NCBI RefSeq assembly: GCF_001427305.1
Contig: NZ_LMFZ01000034.1
Location: 1-64,000, forward strand
Direction: 5' to 3'
Length of the DNA stretch: 64,000 bases
Source of the DNA: Duganella sp. Root1480D1
Lineage (GTDB): Bacteria > Pseudomonadota > Gammaproteobacteria > Burkholderiales > Burkholderiaceae_D
In this document: positions 7,175-56,894 of the stretch, one piece after another
Layout: each line of letters starts with the position of its first letter
Numbering within the stretch: position 1 is the first letter of the stretch
Notes under the pieces: model-generated
Told to the model about the DNA's origin: nothing
The model's database searches: none
What the model saw: the letters and a program-made list of their open reading frames with translations, nothing else
Position numbers and translations under genes: made by a program

Positions 7175-7822
7175 TTATTCCACTGGATTTTTGAGCCCGC
7201 GGCCCAATAAGAAAATTTCAGACGATTTATCGCGGCTGGCCTTCGGTTTTTTCTGCACCACGGTCTTGAATTCGCGCCGGAATTTCTCGACGATCTGGCT
7301 GAATCCCAGGTCCTTGAAACACTTCACCAATAAAGCGCCACCTGGTTTCATATGATGCTGGCTGAACTCAATGGCGATATCGATAAGGTCTTCCATACGG
7401 GCGGCATCGGCCACCGCAATACCCGATAAATTGGGCGCCATATCGGACAGCACAAGGTCCGCCTTGCGGCCTTGCAGCACTTCGGCCAATTGGTCGAGGA
7501 TTTCCTGCTCGCGGAAGTCGCCCTGGATGAAATGCATGTCGGCAATCGGCTCCATCGGCAGGATATCCAGGCCGATCATGGTGCCGTTGATGCCCCCGCC
7601 CTCTTTCCCCGCCAGTTTGCGGCGCACGTATTGGCCCCATGAGCCAGGAGTGCAACCCAGGTCGACGATCACCTGGCCGGGCTTGACCAGCCTGGCGTCT
7701 TCATCAATCTCTTTCAGCTTGTAGGCTGCCCGGGCACGGTAGCCGTCGCGCTGGGCGGCCTTCACATACGGATCGTTAATATGGTCGTGCAACCAGTTTT
7801 TGTTTAATTTGTTCTTAGCCAT
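7175..7822 (-). CDS. rlmE: 23S rRNA (uridine-2552 2'-O) methyltransferase
   Basis: Methylates the ribose of U2552 in the A loop of 23S rRNA late in 50S assembly, using S-adenosylmethionine. The 215-residue length is usual. The cofactor motif [12 protein letters not shown] is near residues 54-65. The catalytic K-D-K-E set is recognisable: a lysine in AAYKLKEI, the aspartate in [12 protein letters not shown], and the lysine in GALLVKCF. It heads the rlmE-ftsH-folP-glmM group and is divergent from yhbY, with 43 bases between the two starts, a pairing common in proteobacteria. Confidence 0.96.
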
Positions 7823-16821: not shown

Positions 16822-18135
16822 TTAGGCGGCCTGAGCAGGCTCGATGGTGGTCGAAGCCAGCGACTTCGGCAGGCTGACCGTAAAGGTACTGCCCTGCCCT
16901 GCCTCGGAGCTGATATTCAGCTTGCCGCTGTGGCGCAGCAGCACGTGCTTGACGATGGCCAGGCCCAGGCCGGTGCCCTGGGTTTCGCGCGAACGGCTCT
17001 TGTCGACGCGGTAGAAGCGCTCGGTCAGGCGGGAGATATGCTCGGGGCTGATGCCGATGCCGGTGTCCTGTACCTGGAATTGCACCCCGCTTGGCGTATC
17101 TTCCCAGCGCAGGCGGATCGCGCCGCCGGCAGGCGTATAACGCACCGCGTTCGAGGCCAGGTTGCCGAAGGCGCTATGCAATTCGTCCATATTGCCCATG
17201 ACGTCGCCGCCGTGCACGTCCAGCGAGATCTCGTGCTTGCCGCCGGAAAGCGCGCGCGCTTCGTGCAGCACCTGCTCCAGGAGCGCAGGGATATTCACAT
17301 GCTGCGGCCGCATCGGATGGTCGACCGACTCCAGGCGCGACAGGGTCAGCATGTCCTCGATCAAATGCTGCATGCGGTGGCTTTGCTCGGTCATCAGCTT
17401 CAGGTGGGCGGCACGGGTTTCCGCATCCAGCTCCATCGACGCGGCGATTTCCAGGAAGCCGGCGATCACCGTCAGCGGCGTGCGCAGTTCGTGCGAGGCG
17501 TTGGCGATAAAGTCGCGGCGCATCATTTCGGCGCGCTGGGTCTCGGTAATATCGTGCGTGACCAGGATCTGGCGGCGGTTTTCGAACGGAATGATGTGCG
17601 CCACCAGCTTGCGGCCGCGGAAATTCAGCGTCAGCGGCTGGTCGTAGCGGCCCAGGATCAGGTAATCCATGAAGTCCGGACTGCGTACCAGGTTGGTCAC
17701 CCGCATGCCCTTGTCCCGTGATTGCTGCAGGCCCAGGTGCTCTTCGGCCGCCGGGTTGCACCATTCGAGAAACAGCACGTCGTCCATGATCACCACGCCG
17801 TCCGGCAGCAAGTGCATGGCCTGGCGGAAGCGCGCCAGCCACTCCGTCAACTCGGCCTGGTTCTTTTCGTCGTCGCGGCGCAGCCGGTACAGGCGGGAAA
17901 AAATATTGGTCCACTCGCCCCAGCCGTCCGGCAGGCGGCCCGATTCAGGCTTGTCCAGCCATTCACTGAGCTGGTAAAGATATTTGAGCTGGATGAAGAC
18001 CGCTGCCAGTACGCCGGCAAAAGCCGTGACAATGCCGGCCGGCAGGCCGAACCACCACCACATCAAGCCTGCCCCGGCAAGCAAAAAGCCCAGCCTGATG
18101 GCGACCGGCACCCAGAACACTACTTTTGGATTCAT
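16822..18135 (-). CDS. phoR: Phosphate-regulon sensor kinase PhoR
   Basis: The membrane histidine kinase that phosphorylates PhoB when phosphate is scarce. The start at 18135 (MNPKVVFWVP, 437 aa) overlaps the phoB stop by four bases (ATGA). N-terminal transmembrane segments lie at about 5-48. A PAS domain is at about 100-195, the HisKA phospho-acceptor His215 in ANASHELRTPL, and the ATPase domain has DTGIGI and GTGLGLAIVKHVL. As in other PhoR proteins there is no large periplasmic sensor domain, consistent with signalling through PstSCAB and PhoU, whose genes are directly upstream. Confidence 0.96.
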   Translation of the reverse strand: MNPKVVFWVPVAIRLGFLLAGAGLMWWWFGLPAGIVTAFAGVLAAVFIQLKYLYQLSEWLDKPESGRLPDGWGEWTNIFSRLYRLRRDDEKNQAELTEWLARFRQAMHLLPDGVVIMDDVLFLEWCNPAAEEHLGLQQSRDKGMRVTNLVRSPDFMDYLILGRYDQPLTLNFRGRKLVAHIIPFENRRQILVTHDITETQRAEMMRRDFIANASHELRTPLTVIAGFLEIAASMELDAETRAAHLKLMTEQSHRMQHLIEDMLTLSRLESVDHPMRPQHVNIPALLEQVLHEARALSGGKHEISLDVHGGDVMGNMDELHSAFGNLASNAVRYTPAGGAIRLRWEDTPSGVQFQVQDTGIGISPEHISRLTERFYRVDKSRSRETQGTGLGLAIVKHVLLRHSGKLNISSEAGQGSTFTVSLPKSLASTTIEPAQAA

Positions 18136-18824
18136 GGCTTCTCTGTGAGCATATATCCCACGCTGCGCACCGTCTTGATCAGGTGCTCGGCATCTTTCAG
18201 CGCCTTGCGCAGGCGCAGTACATGGACATCCACCGTGCGCTCCTCGATCACCACATGGTCGCCCCATACCTTGTCCAGCAACTGGCTGCGCGAAAACACG
18301 CGCTCCGGGTGAGCCATGAAGAACTTGAGCAGCTTGTATTCGGCGTGGCCGATGTCGATCTTGTTATCGTTCATCGACACCGTGCAGCTTACCGGATCCA
18401 GCACCACCGGGCCAGCCTTGAGCTGGGTTTCGGCCAGTTCCGGGCTCTTGCGGCGCAGCAGCGCGCGGGCGCGGGCCAGCAGCTCGCGCGGCGAAAACGG
18501 CTTGGTGATGTAGTCGTCGGCGCCGCCGTTCAAGCCGGCCAGCTTGTCCTCTTCCATGCTCTTGGCTGTCAGCATGATCACCGGCACGGCGGCGAAGTGA
18601 CGGTCGCCGCGGATGCGGGCCAGCAGGCGCAGGCCGCTCTGGTCCGGCAGCATCCAGTCCAGCAGCACCAGTTGCGGGGTGCGGGTTTGCATGACTTCCC
18701 ATGCCTCCTGCGTGGATTGCGCCACCACGCAGTTCCAGCCCGCTTCGCGCAGCGAGAACCTCACCAGCTCAACGATCGCCGGTTCATCTTCAACAATCAG
18801 TACAGTCGTTTTGTCGGATGCCAT
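18132..18824 (-). CDS. phoB: Phosphate-regulon response regulator PhoB
   Basis: An OmpR-type response regulator (230 aa). The phospho-acceptor is Asp56 in LVLLDWMLPD, with acidic residues VEDE at 11-14 and the switch lysine in MLTAKSMEEDK. The C-terminal winged helix carries the recognition part SQLLDKVWGDHVVIEERTVDVH. It abuts phoU without a gap and overlaps phoR by four bases. Candidate PhoB boxes are present in front of both pstS and ppk1 in this window. Confidence 0.97.
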   Translation of the reverse strand: MASDKTTVLIVEDEPAIVELVRFSLREAGWNCVVAQSTQEAWEVMQTRTPQLVLLDWMLPDQSGLRLLARIRGDRHFAAVPVIMLTAKSMEEDKLAGLNGGADDYITKPFSPRELLARARALLRRKSPELAETQLKAGPVVLDPVSCTVSMNDNKIDIGHAEYKLLKFFMAHPERVFSRSQLLDKVWGDHVVIEERTVDVHVLRLRKALKDAEHLIKTVRSVGYMLTEKP

Positions 18825-19523
18825 TTATTTGTTTGCTTCTTGGGTCGCTCCGTGGGAATGGCGGATATCCCTGCCTTCCACCACGTAGATCACGTATTCG
18901 GCGATATTCTTGGCGTGGTCGCCGATGCGCTCAATGGCCTTGGCCACCCACATCGTGTCCAGCGCCGCCGAGATTGTACGCGGATCTTCCATCATGAAGG
19001 TAATCAGGTTGCGCATAATCGAGCGGTACTCATGGTCGATCACTGCATCTTGCGCGATCAGCTCGAGCGCCGCCTTTTCGTCGCCGCGCGCGAAGGCGTC
19101 CAGCGCGTCGTGCAGCAGGTCGCTGGTGGCGGTGGCAATGGTGCGCACCATTTCATAGTGGTTCAGGGTGACGGCGCCGCGTCCGTGCAGGGCCTTGGTA
19201 ATGCGCGCGATCTTGGCAGCTTCGTCGCCGATGCGTTCCAGGTCGGTGATCACCTTCAGGGTCGCCATCACGGTACGCAAGTCGTTGGCGGTCGGCTGGC
19301 GCTTGACGATCAAGTGGCTGCACTGGTCATCCAGCTGCACTTCCAGCTGGTTGACGTTCGCGTCTTCGGCAATCACGCGCTCGGCGCGTTCCAGGTTGCC
19401 GATGCGGAAGCAAGTCATCGCATCCAGGAACATGGTCTCGACCATGCCGCCCATCAGCAGCACTTTGGAGCGGATGCCTTCGAGTTCGGTGTCGTAAGCT
19501 TTGGAGGAATGTTCGCCCATCAT
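18825..19523 (-). CDS. phoU: Phosphate transport regulator PhoU
   Basis: A cytoplasmic helical protein (232 aa) that links the PstSCAB transporter to PhoR and damps phosphate uptake. Two PhoU repeats each carry metal-binding helices, seen as DLERIGDEAAKIARI in the first half and ERIGDHAKNIAEYVIY in the second. It starts 24 bases after pstB, with GAGAGAAG upstream, and ends directly against phoB. The Met-Met start leaves one residue of uncertainty. Confidence 0.96.
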   Translation of the reverse strand: MMGEHSSKAYDTELEGIRSKVLLMGGMVETMFLDAMTCFRIGNLERAERVIAEDANVNQLEVQLDDQCSHLIVKRQPTANDLRTVMATLKVITDLERIGDEAAKIARITKALHGRGAVTLNHYEMVRTIATATSDLLHDALDAFARGDEKAALELIAQDAVIDHEYRSIMRNLITFMMEDPRTISAALDTMWVAKAIERIGDHAKNIAEYVIYVVEGRDIRHSHGATQEANK

Positions 19524-19547: not shown

Positions 19548-20312
19548 TTAGCCAAAGCGGCCGGTGATGTAGTCCTGGGTCTCTTTGCGCACAGGATTCA
19601 TGAAAATCTGGTCGGTCTCGCCGAATTCCACCAGTTCGCCCAGATACATATAGGCGGTGTAATCGGAACAGCGCGCCGCCTGCTGCATATTGTGGGTCAC
19701 GATGGCGATCGTGTAGTCTTCTTTCAGCTCGGAGATCAGCTCTTCGATCTTGGAGGTGGAAATCGGGTCCAGTGCGGAAGTCGGCTCGTCCAGCAGCAGG
19801 ACGTCCGGCTTCACCGCCACGCCGCGTGCGATGCACAGGCGCTGCTGCTGGCCGCCGGACAGCGACAGGCCGCTCTTGGTCAGCTTGTCCTTCACCTCGC
19901 CCCACAGCGCGGCTTTTTTCAGCGCCCATTCGACGCGCTCGTCCATCTCGCCTTTCGACAGGTCTTCGTACAGGCGCACGCCGAAGGCGATATTGTCATA
20001 GATCGACATCGGGAACGGGGTCGGCTTCTGGAACACCATGCCCACTTTGGCGCGCAGCATGTTCACGTCCAGCCCCGCTTCCAGGATGTTGTGGCCGCGG
20101 TAGCGGATGGCGCCTTCGGCGCGCTGGCCCGGGTACAGGTCGTACATGCGGTTCAGGGTGCGCAGCAGGGTCGATTTGCCGCAGCCGGACGGGCCGATGA
20201 AGGCGGTCACCTTCTTCTCGTGGATGTCCAGGTTCACATTGTGCAGGCTGCGCGTCTTGCCGTAGTAGAAGTTCAGGCCGGAGATTTCAATGATTTTGCT
20301 AGCTTGGGTCAT
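19548..20312 (-). CDS. pstB: Phosphate ABC transporter ATPase PstB
   Basis: The ATPase of the high-affinity phosphate importer (254 aa, usual). Walker [10 protein letters not shown], signature [13 protein letters not shown] and Walker [13 protein letters not shown] are complete, with the switch histidine in [12 protein letters not shown]. It follows pstA by 12 bases and precedes phoU. Confidence 0.97.
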
Positions 20313-20324
20313 GATCTGTACTCG

Positions 20325-21182
20325 TTATTTTGGTGCTTTTTGCGCAAACACGGTGCGCGACAGGATGTTCAGTGCCAGGACGCTGAAGGTCACGATCAAG
20401 GCGCCGCCCCAGGCCAGGTCACGCCAGTTGTCGAAGGCGCTCATCGCATAATTGTTCATAATCACCGGCAGATTCGCGATCGCCTGGTTCATGTCGGAAC
20501 TAAAGAACTGACTGTTGAAGGCAGTGAAGAGCAGCGGTGCAGTTTCGCCTGCGATGCGCGCAACCGCCAAAAGCACACCAGTCATCACACCAGCCTTCAC
20601 TGCACGCAGTCGCACCAGCATCGCTACTTTCCAGCGCGGCGCGCCCAGGGCATATGCAGCCTCCAGCAAGGAGTTGGGCACCAGCTTGAGCATATTGTCG
20701 GTGGTTCGCACCACTACCGGGATCGCGATCAGCGCCAATGCGAGCGAACCGGCATAGCCGGAAAAGTGCTTCACCTTATCTACGTAGATCGCCCAGATAA
20801 ACATACCAATCACGATCGATGGCGCCGACAACATTACGTCAGTCACAAAGCGAGTCACCTGCGCCATTTTGCTTTCTTCGCCATATTCGGCCAGGTAGGT
20901 GCCAGCCAGAATGCCAATCGGGGTAGCGACCAACGTCGATACACCGACCATCATCAGACTGCCGACGATCGCATTGCGCAGACCGCCGCCGACCGCATCT
21001 GGGATTGGAGTGTCTGCCACGAATATGTCCAGGTTAATCGCCGAAAAACCTTTGGACAGGAGCGTAGCCAGGATCCACAGTAAGGCGATCAGACCGACCG
21101 ACATTGCACTGACTGACAACAGCATGCCGACACGATGCCAGAACAGGCGTTTGCGGTACACGGGATTCTTTGCTGCGTTCAT
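20325..21182 (-). CDS. pstA: Phosphate ABC transporter permease PstA
   Basis: One of the two membrane subunits of the phosphate importer (285 aa) with about six transmembrane helices. The coupling-helix region LEAAYALGAPRWKVAMLV (EAA-like loop) contacts PstB. The first base of its stop-start junction overlaps pstC (shared position 21182), so the permeases are translationally coupled. Confidence 0.96.
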   Translation of the reverse strand: MNAAKNPVYRKRLFWHRVGMLLSVSAMSVGLIALLWILATLLSKGFSAINLDIFVADTPIPDAVGGGLRNAIVGSLMMVGVSTLVATPIGILAGTYLAEYGEESKMAQVTRFVTDVMLSAPSIVIGMFIWAIYVDKVKHFSGYAGSLALALIAIPVVVRTTDNMLKLVPNSLLEAAYALGAPRWKVAMLVRLRAVKAGVMTGVLLAVARIAGETAPLLFTAFNSQFFSSDMNQAIANLPVIMNNYAMSAFDNWRDLAWGGALIVTFSVLALNILSRTVFAQKAPK

Positions 21183-22201
21183 TATTTCACGCCCTCCTTG
21201 CGGGACATACTCAACAACATCAACTTGGCGGCGGACAGCACAATAAATGTAATGACGAACAGGATGAAGGCCAGCGCATACAGGGAAGAAATGTGCAGCC
21301 TGCTTGTGGCTTCAGCAAATTCATTGGCCAGCGTCGAGGTGATGCTGGCACCGGCCGCAAACAGTGACGGCTTCAGGGAGTTAGCGTTACCGATGACGAA
21401 CGTCACCGCCATGGTTTCCCCGAGGGCACGTCCGAGGCCAAGCATGACACCACCCACCACGCCGGTTTTGGAGTAAGGCAGGACCACCTTACGCACAACT
21501 TCCCAGCGCGTGCAGCCTAACCCATATGCGGATTCCTTGAGCACAGCCGGGACGATTTCGAACACGTCACGCATTACCGAAGAGATGAAAGGAATGATCA
21601 TGACGGCCAAAATAATCGACGCGGTAAGGATGCCAATGCCCATGGTTGGACCTTTGAACAGTACGCCAATCCAGGGCAGCGACCCGAGAGTCGCTTTCAA
21701 AAACGGCTGGACATAATCGCCAAACAGTGGCGCAAACACAAACAGGCCCCACATGCCATAAATAATGGACGGGATGCCGGCCAGAAGCTCAATCGCCGTC
21801 CCCAGAGGGCGGCGCAGCCAAACCGGACACACTTCAGTAAGAAACAGAGCAATGCCGAAGCTGACTGGAAACGCAATCAACAGAGCCAATGCTGACGTGA
21901 CCAAGGTGCCGTAAATGGCGATAGCAGCGCCGAAGTTGTCGTTGACCGGATCCCATTCGACGGTGGTAAAGAATGCTGGCCCAAAGTGTTCGAAGGCTGG
22001 CCAGGCACCAATCGCAAGGTAAACGATGATGCCCGCCAGGACCAGCAGCACGGTCAGAGCGAACAGCATTGTGATTTTGTGGAAGAACCAGTCCTGAATG
22101 CGCTGCTTGCGCACGGCGGACTGCATGGCAGCTACGGAGGCACTCATGGTGGCGGGTTCCGATAACTGGAGGGGAGATGGTGAGGTGATTTCTGCACTCA
22201 T
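21182..22201 (-). CDS. pstC: Phosphate ABC transporter permease PstC
   Basis: The partner permease of PstA (339 aa) with a cytoplasmic N-terminal extension of about 45 residues, then about six transmembrane helices. The EAA-like loop is [21 protein letters not shown]. It is separated from pstS by 176 bases that contain a composite palindromic repeat (22269-22370). That arrangement could let pstS be expressed more strongly than the rest of the operon. Confidence 0.96.
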
Positions 22202-22377: not shown

Positions 22378-23421
22378 TCAGTTCAGCGGCTTGCCCGAAG
22401 CATCTTTCAGATTAGCTTTCCACGAAGCCTGCACCAGTTTCACCACCGAGTCCGGCAGCGGCACGTAGTCCAGTTCGGTAGCAGCAGCGTCGCCATTCTT
22501 GAACGCCCAGTCAAAGAACTTGATCACTTCCTTGCCCTTGTTCGCATCAGCCTGCTGCTTGTGCATCAGGATGTAGGACACGCCGGTGATTGGCCAGGAA
22601 GTCTTGCCAGCCTGGTCGGTCAGCACCACGCCGAAGCCTGGGGTCTTGGTCCATTCCGCATTGGCAGCAGCAGCCTTGAAGTTGTCGTCGTCAGGCTGCA
22701 GGAAGGAACCGTCCTTGTTCTTCAGCTGGGTGTGAGCGATCTTGTTCTTCTTGGCGTAAGCCCATTCCACGTAGCCGATCGCGCCCTTGATACGCTGTAC
22801 GTTGGCGGCAACACCGTCGTTGCCCTTGCCGCCCACGCCGGTTACCCATTTAACTGCGGTGCCGGCACCGATCTTGGTCTTGAACTCAGGGTTCACTTTC
22901 GACAGGTAGTCAGTGAACAGGAAGGAAGTGCCGGAGCCGTCAGCGCGGTGCACCACGGTGATTTCAGCAGCTGGCAGCTTCACGCCAGGGTTCAGGGCGG
23001 CGATGGCCGGATTGTTCCATTCGGTGATCTTGCCCAGGTAGATGTCAGCCACAACCGGGCCGGTCAGTTTCAGTTGGCCAGGAGCGATACCGTCCAGGTT
23101 CACCACGGTCACCACGCCACCCATGATGGCTGGGAACTGCATCAGGCCGTCAGCATCCAGCTCTTCCGCTTTCAGGGGCATGTCGGACGCGCCGAAATCG
23201 ACAGTCTTGGCTTTGATCTGCTTGATACCTGCGCCAGAGCCCACGGACTGGTAGTTCAGGCCGTTGCCGGTGGATGCTTTGTAGGCTTCAGCCCACTTGG
23301 CGTAGATCGGGTAAGGGAAAGTTGCGCCTGCGCCGGTCATGTCCGCTGCGAAGGCGGTCGAGAACGCCATTGCCGCCGAAGCGCCAACAACGAAGGAGGT
23401 CAACAACTGTTTCATGCGCAT
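22378..23421 (-). CDS. pstS: Phosphate-binding periplasmic protein PstS
   Basis: The substrate-binding component of the phosphate importer (347 aa). The start at 23421 (MRMKQLLTSF) has AAGGACC eight bases upstream; upstream in-frame starts lie in the promoter region. The signal peptide spans about residues 1-25 (ending AFA). Phosphate-binding loops are visible: GAGATFPYPIYAKW near the mature start, QSVGSGAGIKQI, and HRADGSGTSFLFTDYL. A PhoB box with a matching -10 lies upstream at 23461-23494. Confidence 0.97.
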   Translation of the reverse strand: MRMKQLLTSFVVGASAAMAFSTAFAADMTGAGATFPYPIYAKWAEAYKASTGNGLNYQSVGSGAGIKQIKAKTVDFGASDMPLKAEELDADGLMQFPAIMGGVVTVVNLDGIAPGQLKLTGPVVADIYLGKITEWNNPAIAALNPGVKLPAAEITVVHRADGSGTSFLFTDYLSKVNPEFKTKIGAGTAVKWVTGVGGKGNDGVAANVQRIKGAIGYVEWAYAKKNKIAHTQLKNKDGSFLQPDDDNFKAAAANAEWTKTPGFGVVLTDQAGKTSWPITGVSYILMHKQQADANKGKEVIKFFDWAFKNGDAAATELDYVPLPDSVVKLVQASWKANLKDASGKPLN

Positions 23422-23460
23422 ATCAAAGGTCCTTTTCAGGGGTTGGGTTGAATGCTGCGC

Positions 23461-23494
23461 AGTGTATGACGTCAATATGACAGCTTTATGACAC
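23461..23494 (-). promoter_or_regulatory. PhoB box and promoter of pstS
   Basis: On the minus strand three 11-base repeats run TGTCATAAAGC, TGTCATATTGA, CGTCATACACT. The second TGTCAT is followed by exactly 10 bases and then TACACT (-10 at 23466-23461), the standard spacing of PhoB-activated promoters. The predicted transcript start is about 33 bases before the pstS ATG. Confidence 0.88.
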
Positions 23495-23516
23495 GTCAAA
23501 ATTAAGTGTAGGACAA

Positions 23517-23549
23517 GGTCACAAACTTGTCATATTTCTCAAATATACT
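23517..23549 (+). promoter_or_regulatory. PhoB box and promoter of ppk1
   Basis: GGTCACAAACT (23517-23527) and TGTCATATTTC (23528-23538) form a two-repeat Pho box. TGTCAT is followed by exactly 10 bases and TATACT (-10, 23544-23549), the same spacing as at pstS on the other strand. Transcription would start about seven bases after the -10, that is at the ppk1 ATG itself. Confidence 0.75.
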
Positions 23550-23556
23550 AATAGTT

Positions 23557-25623
23557 ATGAAAACAGCATTCCTAGATCGGGAGCTGTCACAGTTGGCGTT
23601 CAACCGCCGCGTGATGGCCCAGGCAGAAGACGCCACCATCCCTGTGCTTGAACGATTGCGCTACCTGTGCATCGTCAGCAGCAACCTGGATGAGTTCTTT
23701 GAAGTCAGGGTCGCCAGCCTGCTGGCCGCCGCCAGTGTCGATGGCGACCTGGCCACCCACCCTGCCCTGGCGGCCACGCTGGAACGGGTCAGCAACGAGT
23801 GCCATGAACTGGTCAAGCGCCAGTACGAAATATTCAACACGGCAGTGTTGCCGGAAATGAAAGCCCAGGGCATCCACATCGTGCGCCACAGCCAGCGCAA
23901 CGAAGCCCAAAGGGCCTGGGTCAAGGATTACTTTGACCGCGAAGTACGCCCCCTGCTGACGCCGATCGGCCTCGATCCGGCCCACCCCTTCCCACAAGTA
24001 GTTAACAAGAGCCTCAATTTCATCGTCGCGCTGAGCGGCAAGGATGCCTTCGGACGCGGCACCGCCATCGCGATTGTGAAGGCGCCGCGCGTGCTGCCGC
24101 GCGTGATCCGTCTGCCCGACCACCTGTCCAAAGAAGGCGGCGTGTCGTTCTGCCTGCTGTCTTCCGTCATCCACGCCCATATTTCGGAGATGTTCGCCGG
24201 GCGCGACGTGATGGCCTATTCCCAGTTCCGGGTCACGCGCGACTCCGACCTGTGGGTCGATGAAGATGAAGTAAAGAACCTGCGCCAGGCGCTGAAGGGC
24301 GAGTTGCAGGGCCGCGCCTATGGCCGCTCGGTGCGGATCGAGGTGGCCAAGAACTGCCCGCCCGAGCTGTCGCAATTCCTGCTCGACCAGTTCAGCCTGG
24401 ACCAGAGCCGCCTGTACCGCGTCGATGGCCCGGTGAACATGGTGCGCCTGAACGAAATCGTGGAGCAGGCGCGCCGTCCCGAACTGCGCTTCCCGCCCTT
24501 CATCGCCGGCGTGCAGGCCAAGACCGTCAACAACGACATTTTCGCCACCATCCGCAAGCACGACATCCTGCTGCACCATCCCTACCAGAGCTTCCAGACG
24601 GTGATCGACTTCATCCGCAGTGCGGCACTGGACCCGGCCGTGGTGGCGATCAAGCAGACTGTCTACCGCACCGGCATGAACTCGGACCTGATGGAAGCGC
24701 TGATTGCAGCGGCCCGCAGCGGCAAGGAAGTCACGGTGGTAGTGGAGTTGATGGCGCGCTTCGACGAAGAAGCCAATATCAACTGGGCCGACAAGCTGGA
24801 ACAGGCCGGCGCGCAAGTGGTATACGGCGTGGTGGGCCTGAAGACCCATGCCAAGATCGCCCTGGTGATTCGCCGCGATGAAGGCGGCCTCGGCTTCTAC
24901 GCTCACCTCGGCACCGGCAACTACCACCCGACCACGACCAAGTTCTACACCGACTTCGGCATCCTGACCTGCGAGCCGCAACTGGGCCGCGACGTCAATG
25001 AAGTGTTCATGCACCTGACCAGCCTGACCAAGCCGCAGCGCATGAACCATATCTGGCTGGCGCCTTTTGCGTTGCAGGACCAGATCATCAAAGCGATCCG
25101 GAATGAGGCAAAAATCGCGAAATCCGGGCGTCCGGGCCGGATTATCGCTAAAATCAATGCATTAACCGATGAACCGGTGATCCGGGCGCTGTATGCCGCT
25201 TCGAAAGACGGGGTCAAGATCGACCTGGTCGTGCGCGGCGCCTGCACCCTGATGCCGGGCGTGCCGGGACTGTCCGAGAACATCCGGGTGCGCTCCATCA
25301 TCGGCCGCTTCCTTGAACATAGCCGCATCTATTACTTCCGCAACGACCTGGCCCACGACGTCATGCTGGCCAGCGCGGACTGGATGAACCGCAACCTGCT
25401 GCGCCGCATTGAAGTGGCGTTCCCGGTCCTTGACCGGAGCCTGAAACGGCGCGTGATTGCGGAAGGTTTGACGCCTTACCTGAAGGACAACTCCAACGCG
25501 TGGGAGCTGGATTCGCACGGCCAGTATCACCGCCGCAAGCCGCGCGCCAAGCAGAAGGCCTTCAGCGCCCAGCAGCATTTGATGGGCTTACTCGGTACGC
25601 CGGCCGATGCGCCGTCGGATTGA
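23557..25623 (+). CDS. ppk1: Polyphosphate kinase 1
   Basis: Makes inorganic polyphosphate from ATP at the membrane. The start at 23557 (MKTAFLDRELSQLAFNRRV, 688 aa) matches family N-termini; an in-frame TTG at 23527 lies inside the Pho box. No ribosome site precedes the ATG, and the -10 TATACT ends seven bases before it, so the mRNA is probably leaderless. The phosphorylated-histidine region is VVGLKTHAKIALVIRR, the second catalytic histidine is in GRFLEHSRIYYFRN, and HLGTGNYHPTTTKFYTD is conserved. It is divergent from pstS and 21 bases before sixA. Confidence 0.97.
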   Translation: MKTAFLDRELSQLAFNRRVMAQAEDATIPVLERLRYLCIVSSNLDEFFEVRVASLLAAASVDGDLATHPALAATLERVSNECHELVKRQYEIFNTAVLPEMKAQGIHIVRHSQRNEAQRAWVKDYFDREVRPLLTPIGLDPAHPFPQVVNKSLNFIVALSGKDAFGRGTAIAIVKAPRVLPRVIRLPDHLSKEGGVSFCLLSSVIHAHISEMFAGRDVMAYSQFRVTRDSDLWVDEDEVKNLRQALKGELQGRAYGRSVRIEVAKNCPPELSQFLLDQFSLDQSRLYRVDGPVNMVRLNEIVEQARRPELRFPPFIAGVQAKTVNNDIFATIRKHDILLHHPYQSFQTVIDFIRSAALDPAVVAIKQTVYRTGMNSDLMEALIAAARSGKEVTVVVELMARFDEEANINWADKLEQAGAQVVYGVVGLKTHAKIALVIRRDEGGLGFYAHLGTGNYHPTTTKFYTDFGILTCEPQLGRDVNEVFMHLTSLTKPQRMNHIWLAPFALQDQIIKAIRNEAKIAKSGRPGRIIAKINALTDEPVIRALYAASKDGVKIDLVVRGACTLMPGVPGLSENIRVRSIIGRFLEHSRIYYFRNDLAHDVMLASADWMNRNLLRRIEVAFPVLDRSLKRRVIAEGLTPYLKDNSNAWELDSHGQYHRRKPRAKQKAFSAQQHLMGLLGTPADAPSD

Positions 25624-26401: not shown

Positions 26402-27712
26402 TCAGGCGAACAGGTCGAAGAGCGAGGAAGTGCCGCCCAGTTGCTCGTCCTGCGTGTAAAGACGCACCAGTGCCTGCGCCTGCACGGTCAGCATTTGCGC
26501 CATGGAGGATTTGCGGCTTTGCAGGGTATCGACTTCACGGTCGGCCTGCGCCAGCGCGCGCGACACGACGCTGCGCTCGCCGCCCAGGCTTTCAAGGCGC
26601 GAACCGAGGGCGTCGGCCAAGCCCCTGCCCTCGTTGGTGAAGACCTTGGTCACCGCATCGGGATTGGCGTCGATCGCCGCGTTCAGAATGCCACTATCCA
26701 GTTTCAGGCGGCCATTCGTATCGATCGACAAGCCCACATTGGCAAGCGCTTCGGTGCTGCCACCCGCCGAACGCACGAGCTGGTCCAACTGGGTACGCAC
26801 CTGGCCCAGTGCCGGATTGCCGCGTAGCGCGCCTTTGCCAAGGTTATCCAGGCGCTCCTGCAGGGCGTTGAAGCCTTTCACGAAAGCTTCCACATTCTTG
26901 GCGATCTGGCTGTTGTCGCGCGCGACGGTGACTGTGGCAGCGCCTTCGTCGGCCAGGTTGAGGGTGACGCCCTCGATGGCCGACTCCACATTGTTGTCGG
27001 CGCTCTGGATGGTCTTGCCGTCGACAGTCAGGATGGCATCCTGCGCCGCCTGGGTTTGGGTCGCCTGGCTGAACAGGCTGCGGATCGTGGTGTCGCCGGC
27101 TACGGTGATGTTGAGTTTGTTTGCCTCGCCGCTGGCACTGCGCAGCTGCAGCGCCGTGCCGGTGCTCGAGCGCACCAGGCTGGCATCGTAACCCGCATCC
27201 TTGAGTGCATCGGCGATGCCCTGCAGCGTGTTGTTGCGGCTATCGATGGTGACGGTTTTGCTGCTGTCGCCGGTACCAATCCGTATCACGGTCGGCGAGC
27301 CGGTACCAAGCCGCGTATCGGCGCTCTGCGCTTCGGGACTGAGGAGAATTTGCTGCTGGGCCAGTTGGCTGACCTTGACTTCATGCGAGCCGATCGCTGC
27401 CGATGCATTGGTGGTCACACCCAGTACGCCGCTGGCCGAACTGCTGCCCCGGGTGCTGAAGCCAGTGCCTGCCAGGCTCTCTGCAATGTCCTGGAAGACC
27501 GAAAGTGCCGATTGCAATTGCCCCAGGCCCGAGAATCGCGCCTGGGTCAGGCTGATGCTTGCGTTAAGCTTGGCGGCAGCGCTGCGCTGCGGCGCCAATG
27601 TCTGTTCGACGCGGGCCAGCACGGCTTCCGACGGCGTGCCCACGACGCTGGCATTCCCCAAGCCCAGCGAGGTCCCGTACATCGTGCTTAGCAAGCTGCT
27701 CACATAGTCCAT
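26402..27712 (-). CDS. fliD: Flagellar filament cap protein FliD-like
   Basis: A 436-residue FliD/HAP2-type protein, the cap that guides flagellin folding at the filament tip. FliD_N covers about residues 20-120 (KLNASISLTQARFSGLGQLQ then SHEVKVSQLAQQQ). The central variable part follows, and FliD_C reaches the end, with VEAFVKGFNALQERLDNLG and a coiled-coil ALAQADREVDTLQSRKSSMA. No other flagellar structural gene is in the window, so it is outside a flagellar cluster. It starts nine bases after a PilZ-domain gene and is probably translated by coupling, as no strong ribosome site is seen. Confidence 0.88.
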   Translation of the reverse strand: MDYVSSLLSTMYGTSLGLGNASVVGTPSEAVLARVEQTLAPQRSAAAKLNASISLTQARFSGLGQLQSALSVFQDIAESLAGTGFSTRGSSSASGVLGVTTNASAAIGSHEVKVSQLAQQQILLSPEAQSADTRLGTGSPTVIRIGTGDSSKTVTIDSRNNTLQGIADALKDAGYDASLVRSSTGTALQLRSASGEANKLNITVAGDTTIRSLFSQATQTQAAQDAILTVDGKTIQSADNNVESAIEGVTLNLADEGAATVTVARDNSQIAKNVEAFVKGFNALQERLDNLGKGALRGNPALGQVRTQLDQLVRSAGGSTEALANVGLSIDTNGRLKLDSGILNAAIDANPDAVTKVFTNEGRGLADALGSRLESLGGERSVVSRALAQADREVDTLQSRKSSMAQMLTVQAQALVRLYTQDEQLGGTSSLFDLFA

Positions 27713-55572: not shown

Positions 55573-56367
55573 ATGAGACCCATAGGCGCATTCGGCACCC
55601 TGATTGTCGGCACCGTCCTTGGTGCCGGGGGTACGCTGCTGTTGCTTAGCCGCGTACCGCTTGATAACCGCGAAACCGCGGCCATTACGATTCCCGGCGA
55701 CCGGCCGGCGCCAGTGCCGCCAACCGTCCCGGCGACACCGCCCGTCATCGAGCCTGGGGCAACGGTGCCGGCTCCCGCACTCACGCCGGCCCAGGCGGCG
55801 CCGGCCGAGCAGCCGCGCACGGCAAGCACCGCGGCTCCAGGCATTCCCGGCGCAGGCAAGGCGTCCGGCGATTCGCTGGCCGGCATGCAGCCGATGGAGG
55901 CCAGCGGCACCGGAGGCCTGGTGGCCAGCGGCGGCGGCGCTTCGCTGCTGATTCCTGTGGCAGGCGTGAAGCCGGCGCAAATCCAGGACACCTACAGCCA
56001 GCCGCGCGGGTCGGAGCGCATGCACGAAGCGCTCGATATCCTGGCTCCGATCGGCACACCGGTCTACGCCGTGGCAGACGGCAAGATCGCCAAGCTATTC
56101 AACAGCAAACCTGGCGGCCTGACGATCTACCAGTTCGACCCGAGCGAAAAATACTCTTACTACTACGCTCACCTTGACCACTACGCCACTGCGCTGAAGG
56201 AAGGCCAACAGGTCAAGCGCGGCGATTTGATTGGCTATGTGGGTGCCACCGGCAATGCGGATCCCGCTGCGCCGCACCTGCATTTCGCCATGTTTGAACT
56301 GCTTCCGGAGAAGAACTGGTGGCAGGGCAAGCCCATCAACCCTTACCCATTGCTTAGTCACCAGTGA
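55573..56367 (+). CDS. M23-family peptidase (LysM-less), membrane-anchored
   Basis: A 264-residue protein. AAGGAGG lies seven bases before the ATG at 55573. An N-terminal hydrophobic helix (about 6-27) is followed by a proline/alanine-rich stretch to about residue 125, then the M23 domain with the zinc ligands HEALD (H and D) and PHLHF. It is a predicted zinc endopeptidase for peptidoglycan crosslinks, anchored to the inner membrane. It is co-transcribed with the L,D-transpeptidase, and its last 10 bases overlap the convergent M15-like gene. Confidence 0.9.
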
Positions 56368-56894
56368 CGCACGCGGCCCGTGTCCATGTGCACGAACTGT
56401 GACGTCGGGTAGTAACCGACGCCACCGCCCTTCAACGCCAACGCGGCCTTGTGCAGTCGCTCCAGCTCGCGCCCTGGAATGCGCACGTCGATGGCTTTCC
56501 CTTCGATGTGCATGCTGTGCTTTGCCACCCCGCCGCTGGCCTCGGCCAGCATCTGGTTGGACTCAGGAGACCGGTAGCCGGAAATCACATGGATCACTTC
56601 ATGGTTGCTGAACTGCGCACTGACGCGCTCGAGCAGCAGAATGAGCTCGGGATCGATGCTGGCGACCTTGTCGTTGCGGTGGTCGCGCAACAGGTGGTTG
56701 ATGTCCTGCAGCGCCTCGGGAATGAACTGACCTTCGGCCCAGAACATGGTGCGCAGGGTTTCGCCGGTATGCGTGTTGTAGAAGCGCAGGCTGCGTTCAT
56801 GCGGCGCCGCAATGGCGGCGCGCGCCATCGCCGGCAGCGCCAAAGCCGATGCCACCGCCACGGAACTCTTGAGGAATGATCGACGGTTGTTCAT
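56358..56894 (-). CDS. DUF882/YcbK-like M15 peptidase, Tat-exported
   Basis: A 178-residue protein with a twin-arginine-type signal ([10 protein letters not shown], then a hydrophobic stretch to about residue 29). The M15-like metal site is visible as [13 protein letters not shown] and [10 protein letters not shown], with [12 protein letters not shown] before it. This is the YcbK family, predicted murein endopeptidases or binding proteins. It overlaps the M23 gene by 10 bases at their 3' ends. Confidence 0.9.

Follow-up and report, generated by a model that had tools for sequence, protein, structure and literature searches.

A predicted leaderless ppk1 behind one of two opposed Pho-box promoters in Duganella

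The polyphosphate kinase gene ppk1 of Duganella sp. Root1480D1 is well supported as a leaderless gene lying behind a Pho-box promoter. In the reading considered probable here, the intergenic region that ppk1 shares with pstS holds two opposed promoters activated by PhoB, the former leader of ppk1 has been deleted, and the Pho promoter of this gene now faces a new ATG, from which a leaderless RNA would be made. The window analysed is a stretch of 64,000 nucleotides (contig NZ_LMFZ01000034.1, positions 1 to 64,000) from a host genome of 6.6 Mb, which is close to that of Duganella sp. Root336D2 (L002; ppk1 product 97% identical, and the ppk1 promoter arranged in the same way). The pstS (minus strand) and ppk1 (plus strand) genes are divergent, with 135 bp between them. 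The features of the locus are listed below; the promoter elements were read directly from the sequence, and the names pstC, pstA and pstB (19548..22201, minus strand) are presumed from sequence features and gene order.

16822..18141, minus strand: phoR, sensor kinase, start provisional (Pfam PhoR, HisKA, HATPase_c)
18132..18824, minus strand: phoB, response regulator (Pfam Response_reg and Trans_reg_C; the name phoB comes from the context)
18825..19523, minus strand: phoU (Pfam PhoU)
19548..20312, minus strand: open reading frame, presumably pstB
20325..21182, minus strand: open reading frame, presumably pstA
21182..22201, minus strand: open reading frame, presumably pstC
22378..23421, minus strand: pstS, encoding a phosphate-binding protein (MRMKQLL...); ribosome site AAAGGA (Pfam PBP_like_2; the name comes also from the operon context)
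23461..23466, minus strand: pstS -10 element TACACT, 10 nt past the Pho box
23477..23493, minus strand: pstS Pho box TGTCAT-N5-TGTCAT, repeats at 23493-23488 and 23482-23477
23517..23533, plus strand: ppk1 Pho box GGTCAC-N5-TGTCAT, with GGTCAC at 23517-23522 and TGTCAT at 23528-23533
23544..23549, plus strand: ppk1 -10 element TATACT (TACACT in the sister species)
23557, plus strand: predicted transcription start, the A of the AUG and eighth nucleotide after the -10, from the position of the -10 and the 6-7-nt spacing in relatives and host
23557..25623, plus strand: ppk1, polyphosphate kinase 1, 688 aa, start ATG 23557 (Pfam PP_kinase_N, PP_kinase, PP_kinase_C_1, PP_kinase_C)

The identity of PPK1 is given by its N-terminal, middle and two C-terminal PPK domains, all four Pfam models scoring above their cut-offs; the host also encodes a PPK2. 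Both strands of the intergenic region carry two TGTCAT-like direct repeats with an 11-bp period, as in PhoB-type promoters. On the ppk1 side, TGTCAT is followed by 10 nt, TATACT, a further 7 nt (AATAGTT) and the ATG at 23557, and on the pstS side 39 nt separate TACACT from the ATG at 23421. A preliminary description of this DNA had reported back-to-back Pho boxes with -10 elements at 10 nt, that of ppk1 ending 7 nt before the ATG, and the sequence matches it base for base. In the ppk1 box GGTCAC, the first repeat, is degenerate; on the pstS side there is a weaker third repeat (ACGTCAT), which overlaps both the -10 element and the gap before it. The phoA gene of E. coli is an example of a Pho box with a 10-bp gap. 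A sigma70-like match directed towards pstS (ATGACA-17-TACACT, 23533-23505, minus strand) overlaps the Pho box of ppk1; in L083 the second hexamer of this match is lost.

The conservation of these promoters has been followed in 231 distinct ppk1 upstream regions kept from 276, after removal of 12 loci that were copies or pattern hits (L001 and L178-L188) and then of rows with an identical upstream. Besides named loci, the sample of the Oxalobacteraceae consisted of 139 family genomes with a match, 30 of them present as loci and 100 retrieved; G107 and G108 were left out, together with the split or partial matches of G094, G116, G119, G158, G159, G172 and G175. For the genus, the sample was of 74 genomes, 30 as loci and 40 retrieved, with G035, G055, G062 and G073 left out. 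Pho box and -10 element together reach the threshold score of 17 in 211 of the 231 distinct upstreams of the family, 20 falling below it, and the gap between them is 10 nt in 210 of these 211 (7 to 13 allowed). The pstS gene faces ppk1 in 184 of the 231; in this arrangement the pstS-side box scores at least 17 in 172 of 184, with a gap of 10 nt in 172/172 (8 to 12 allowed), and in 170 of the 184 distinct divergent regions this score is reached by both boxes. The ppk1 box is also carried by seven named Herbaspirillum loci (L050, L053, L055, L057-L060). Among other families of the order, 27 loci were checked out of 90 genomes with a match; the best of them were three loci with degenerate boxes and scores of 17.0-17.3, and the claims made here are confined to the Oxalobacteraceae.

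The distance from the -10 element to the ATG behaves differently. Conservation of spacing in relatives, which the preliminary description had offered as a check, holds for the gap between box and -10, while that between -10 and ATG is specific to certain clades. One of the 211 scored upstreams (L273) has no in-frame ATG past the -10, which leaves 210 rows, and ATGs less than 4 nt from the -10 were not counted (three in-frame ones lie at 0-3 nt). The first counted in-frame ATG is found 11 to 235 nt past the -10 in 199 of the 210, and with so many relatives having their ATG at least 11 nt away, being leaderless is not something that ppk1 conserves as a gene. In the remaining rows this ATG stands at 6 nt (3) or 7 nt (8), with zero at 4, 5, 8, 9 and 10 nt; ATGs at 6-7 nt past the -10 are in frame in 11 cases and out of frame in 1. 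The window's clade provides four species with a spacing of 7 nt, their spacers being AATAGTT, ATTAGTT, AATAGCT and ATTCGCT. In the other two lineages the start codon is less certain. A second lineage provides five rows, with the ATG at 6, 7, 6, 7 and 6 nt, and further in-frame starts are listed for three of the five. The third lineage, genus g16, provides two rows at 7 nt, a pair that is doubtful as a leaderless case, since its ATG is preceded by AGGA and followed 21 nt on by another ATG in frame. On a protein tree built from 123 of these 210 rows, obtained by a quick search and with six rows only 18% filled, the leaderless label needs four changes, and well-supported branches force three of the four; the tree is compatible with L085 either joining or not joining the rest of the window's clade. 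Several independent origins of a leaderless ppk1 are likely, though three label changes could also represent one gain and two losses. In ppk1 of the Herminiimonas/Oxalicibacterium type (L043, L048, L189, L191, L214, L219 and L236), the ATG lies 13-14 nt past the -10, and the predicted leader is therefore only about 6 nt.

In leaderless genes of the TA-led kind the -10 stands about 5-8 nt ahead of the start codon, and the 7 nt of ppk1 fall within this range. The seventh base after the ppk1 -10 is a T; the alternative predicted start, G23554, would give a leader of 3 nt. A survey of the host covered 317 open reading frames from 464 kb in 20 stretches, taken at their first ATG and uncurated. Strong -10 hexamers stand 6 nt before this ATG in 9 cases and 7 nt before it in 6. 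The distances of 0-5 nt together account for 4 and those of 8-14 nt for 5, and there are also 5-6 hits at each of the single positions 15, 29, 30 and 32 nt. The fifteen frames with a -10 at 6-7 nt, ppk1 among them, represent some 4-5% of the 317, against 2.88 expected from shuffled upstreams. Two of the 20 stretches, on contig C12, lie at or beside a hit of the one-repeat pattern described below, and that hit is outside the fifteen. Candidates for leaderless genes with a strong -10 6 nt before the first ATG are also seen in the window at 26402-27712, 7175-7822 and 56358-56894 (all minus strand), the first two of which look FliD-like and RlmE-like by eye only. In other bacteria, the accessible parts of the published reports give leaderless starts a similar share in Cupriavidus metallidurans, 4.67% of its mapped primary starts, and for Burkholderia cenocepacia 114 leaderless transcripts (72 + 42), 24 of them tRNAs, the leaderless genes being enriched in transcription regulators. 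Leaderless translation thus looks like something that a minority of genes use in this group, with nothing odd about it; a leaderless ppk1 is for this reason less surprising and can be proposed with more confidence. Given the Cupriavidus and Burkholderia shares, as far as those reports are accessible, it was too strong to expect, as had been done, that ppk1 would be translated in an "unusual" way. The predicted start of the transcript at the ATG itself has gained support from the 7 nt kept in four species, the recurrence of 6-7 nt elsewhere and the excess in the host.

The origin of this arrangement is suggested by the nearest sisters, with ppk1 products 92-93% identical, which have 27-28 nt before their first ATG. 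Relative to them, a net 38-39 nt are missing from the window's clade (as gaps of 35 and 4 in an alignment that is uncertain across this gap). The missing nucleotides contain both sister start codons, and the clade's own ATG aligns with the sisters' leader. A loss within the window's clade explains this more simply than a gain elsewhere, because most other congeners have leaders longer still than the 27-28 nt of the sisters. Among the 65 leadered congeners, 59 have a TADAAT hexamer within the leader (TAGAAT in Rugamonas rubra, L004), its commonest distance from the ATG being 29 nt, and the window's ppk1 has no room for it; family-wide, TAGAAT, TAAAAT or TATAAT occurs in 77 of 182 leaders, compared with 6.9% of shuffles. 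In this host, -10-like hexamers also accumulate about 28-33 nt before the ATG. It may be conjectured that TADAAT is a second, proximal promoter lost in the window's clade. This stays a conjecture because there is no good -35 (16-18 nt upstream of TADAAT, most have at most 2 of 6 matches to TTGACA) and because two of the three sisters also lack the hexamer. Two further observations concern the leaders. A conserved GCTAGAAT-like element, a possible second promoter lacking a -35, is found in those of 59 of the 65 leadered congeners, for example L007 and L014, where it usually stands 29 nt from the ppk1 ATG, and also in Janthinobacterium L016. In the sisters L086, L003 and L088, TAAGAT or TAACAT stands 7 nt before the second ATG, and a proximal promoter there could likewise yield a leaderless RNA.

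The mechanism proposed involves two opposed, PhoB-activated sigma70 promoters that would share the 135-bp region and serve the pst-pho operon in one direction and ppk1 in the other. A net loss of 38-39 nt would have taken the former 5' leader and start codons, and probably a second promoter as well, after which the Pho promoter would face the new ATG of ppk1. The promoter rules and the 6-7-nt peak suggest that the RNA begins on the A of the AUG, or at most 3 nt before it. When phosphate is scarce, phosphorylated PhoB would activate both promoters, and ribosomes would load at the 5' AUG without Shine-Dalgarno contact, in keeping with established knowledge of leaderless mRNAs. Devoid of the proximal promoter-like element, ppk1 would mainly depend on the Pho promoter. 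We infer both the PhoB dependence of ppk1 and the translational effects from sequence.

An unlikely alternative is that ppk1 is transcribed mainly from another upstream promoter into a leadered mRNA, the Pho-driven leaderless RNA being minor. The second -10-like element of 59 of the 65 leadered congeners suggests that ppk1 can have two promoters, and positions 23300-23800 hold two sigma70-like matches, one of them on the plus strand. However, the -10 of this plus-strand match (AATAGT) lies one base before the ATG, so that its RNA would start within the gene, and the match is not kept in L085; on both counts it was rejected as a competing promoter. Moreover, it is the Pho box and its -10 that the clade conserves, and a leadered ppk1 RNA would be without a Shine-Dalgarno sequence.

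As regards the regulator, the two-repeat pattern GTCAY-N5-BGTCAY-N10-TANNNT has 7 matches in the 6.6-Mb genome and 0 when reversed, a count by which a chance Pho box was ruled out. Two of the seven are the pstS/ppk1 pair, two precede alkaline phosphatase and PhoX, and three are without an evident Pho link. A laxer one-repeat pattern followed by an ATG 5-7 nt on gives 4 matches against 1 for its control; being hardly enriched, it indicates that the strength rests on both repeats jointly. With regard to phosphate itself, ppk has been reported as induced by its scarcity in most bacteria (PMC4415409, accessible text). An RNA-seq study of Herbaspirillum seropedicae at two phosphate levels, the one study of this kind found for the family, in its accessible text reports phoB and phoA as up at high phosphate and, among the polyphosphate genes, only ppk2 as induced, also at high phosphate. 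That text gives no support for low-phosphate induction of ppk1, and neither shows nor excludes control by PhoB. This want of plain low-phosphate induction and the three matches without an evident Pho link would suit binding of the repeats by another OmpR-family regulator, with no phosphate control. Such a regulator is nevertheless very unlikely, the same repeats, 11-bp period and 10-nt gap being found before pstS, alkaline phosphatase and PhoX, and phoB and phoR lying within the facing operon.

Concerning the start codon, no ATG of this frame comes between the in-frame stops and ATG 23557, and the only start codon in that interval is TTG 23527. Since PP_kinase_N begins at residue 5 of the protein read from ATG 23557, there is hardly space for a later start, and a mis-called start was rejected on these two points. 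Translation from TTG 23527, which is in frame, or from a later codon would make the coincidence of ATG and RNA start meaningless, but it is highly improbable, as this TTG precedes the -10 and falls inside the Pho box, the PP_kinase_N domain starts at residue 5, and the relatives' ATGs at 6-7 nt are in frame by 11 to 1. The lack of a ribosome site before ppk1, noted in the preliminary description, agrees with an anti-Shine-Dalgarno pairing energy of 0, against -5.3 for pstS, though the measure separates poorly (median -1.6 for leadered ppk1; -3.2 for the window's open reading frames versus -2.8 for shuffles). A missing Shine-Dalgarno sequence is weak evidence for a leaderless gene, given that those of leadered ppk1 relatives are weak too.

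The biological significance of a leaderless ppk1 would be that a small deletion can convert a leadered gene into a leaderless one at its transcription start, seemingly more than once. One genus also provides a natural experiment, in which some of the closely related ppk1 genes have both a leader and a second promoter-like element while others have lost the two, and this contrast makes the effect of leader loss on a starvation gene measurable. It is rather unlikely that the repeated fusion of Pho promoter and ppk1 start is adaptive, by dispensing with leader and second promoter and placing the gene under control specific to leaderless mRNAs (70S loading, IF3, YchF, ppGpp). If this were true, the cell would make polyphosphate kinase selectively under phosphate scarcity, while ordinary initiation declines.

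No description of a leaderless ppk1 was found among the papers listed in the literature searched, most subscription journals being outside its scope; its components, however, have known counterparts. The E. coli ppk has in common the enzyme family, and differs by a long 5' UTR where ppk1 here would have no leader (PMC11237923, accessible text). In E. coli, the accessible texts describe YchF as keeping the PPK product low post-transcriptionally (PMC11237923) and as restraining leaderless translation (PMC8138138). The host has one YchF match above the cut-off, and by analogy YchF is suggestive as a link between leaderless translation and PPK synthesis; given the long 5' UTR of E. coli ppk, the two effects are not the same there. 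PhoB-dependent Pho-box promoters, as described in the accessible text of PMC4415409, likewise have two TGTCA-type repeats 11 bp apart and then a -10; here, in contrast, the ppk1 -10 is 7 nt from the start codon, and pstS retains 39 nt and a Shine-Dalgarno sequence. With TA-led genes (Zheng et al., 2011; PMC3160421, accessible text), ppk1 shares a TANNNT placed some 12 bp ahead of the start codon and an RNA expected to begin at or near the AUG, and it differs from them in that its -10 stands within a Pho-box promoter and the gene encodes a metabolic enzyme, whereas it is transcription regulators that are enriched among the leaderless genes of B. cenocepacia. The ppk1 arrangement is a combination of these known kinds, the Pho-box promoter and the leaderless gene.
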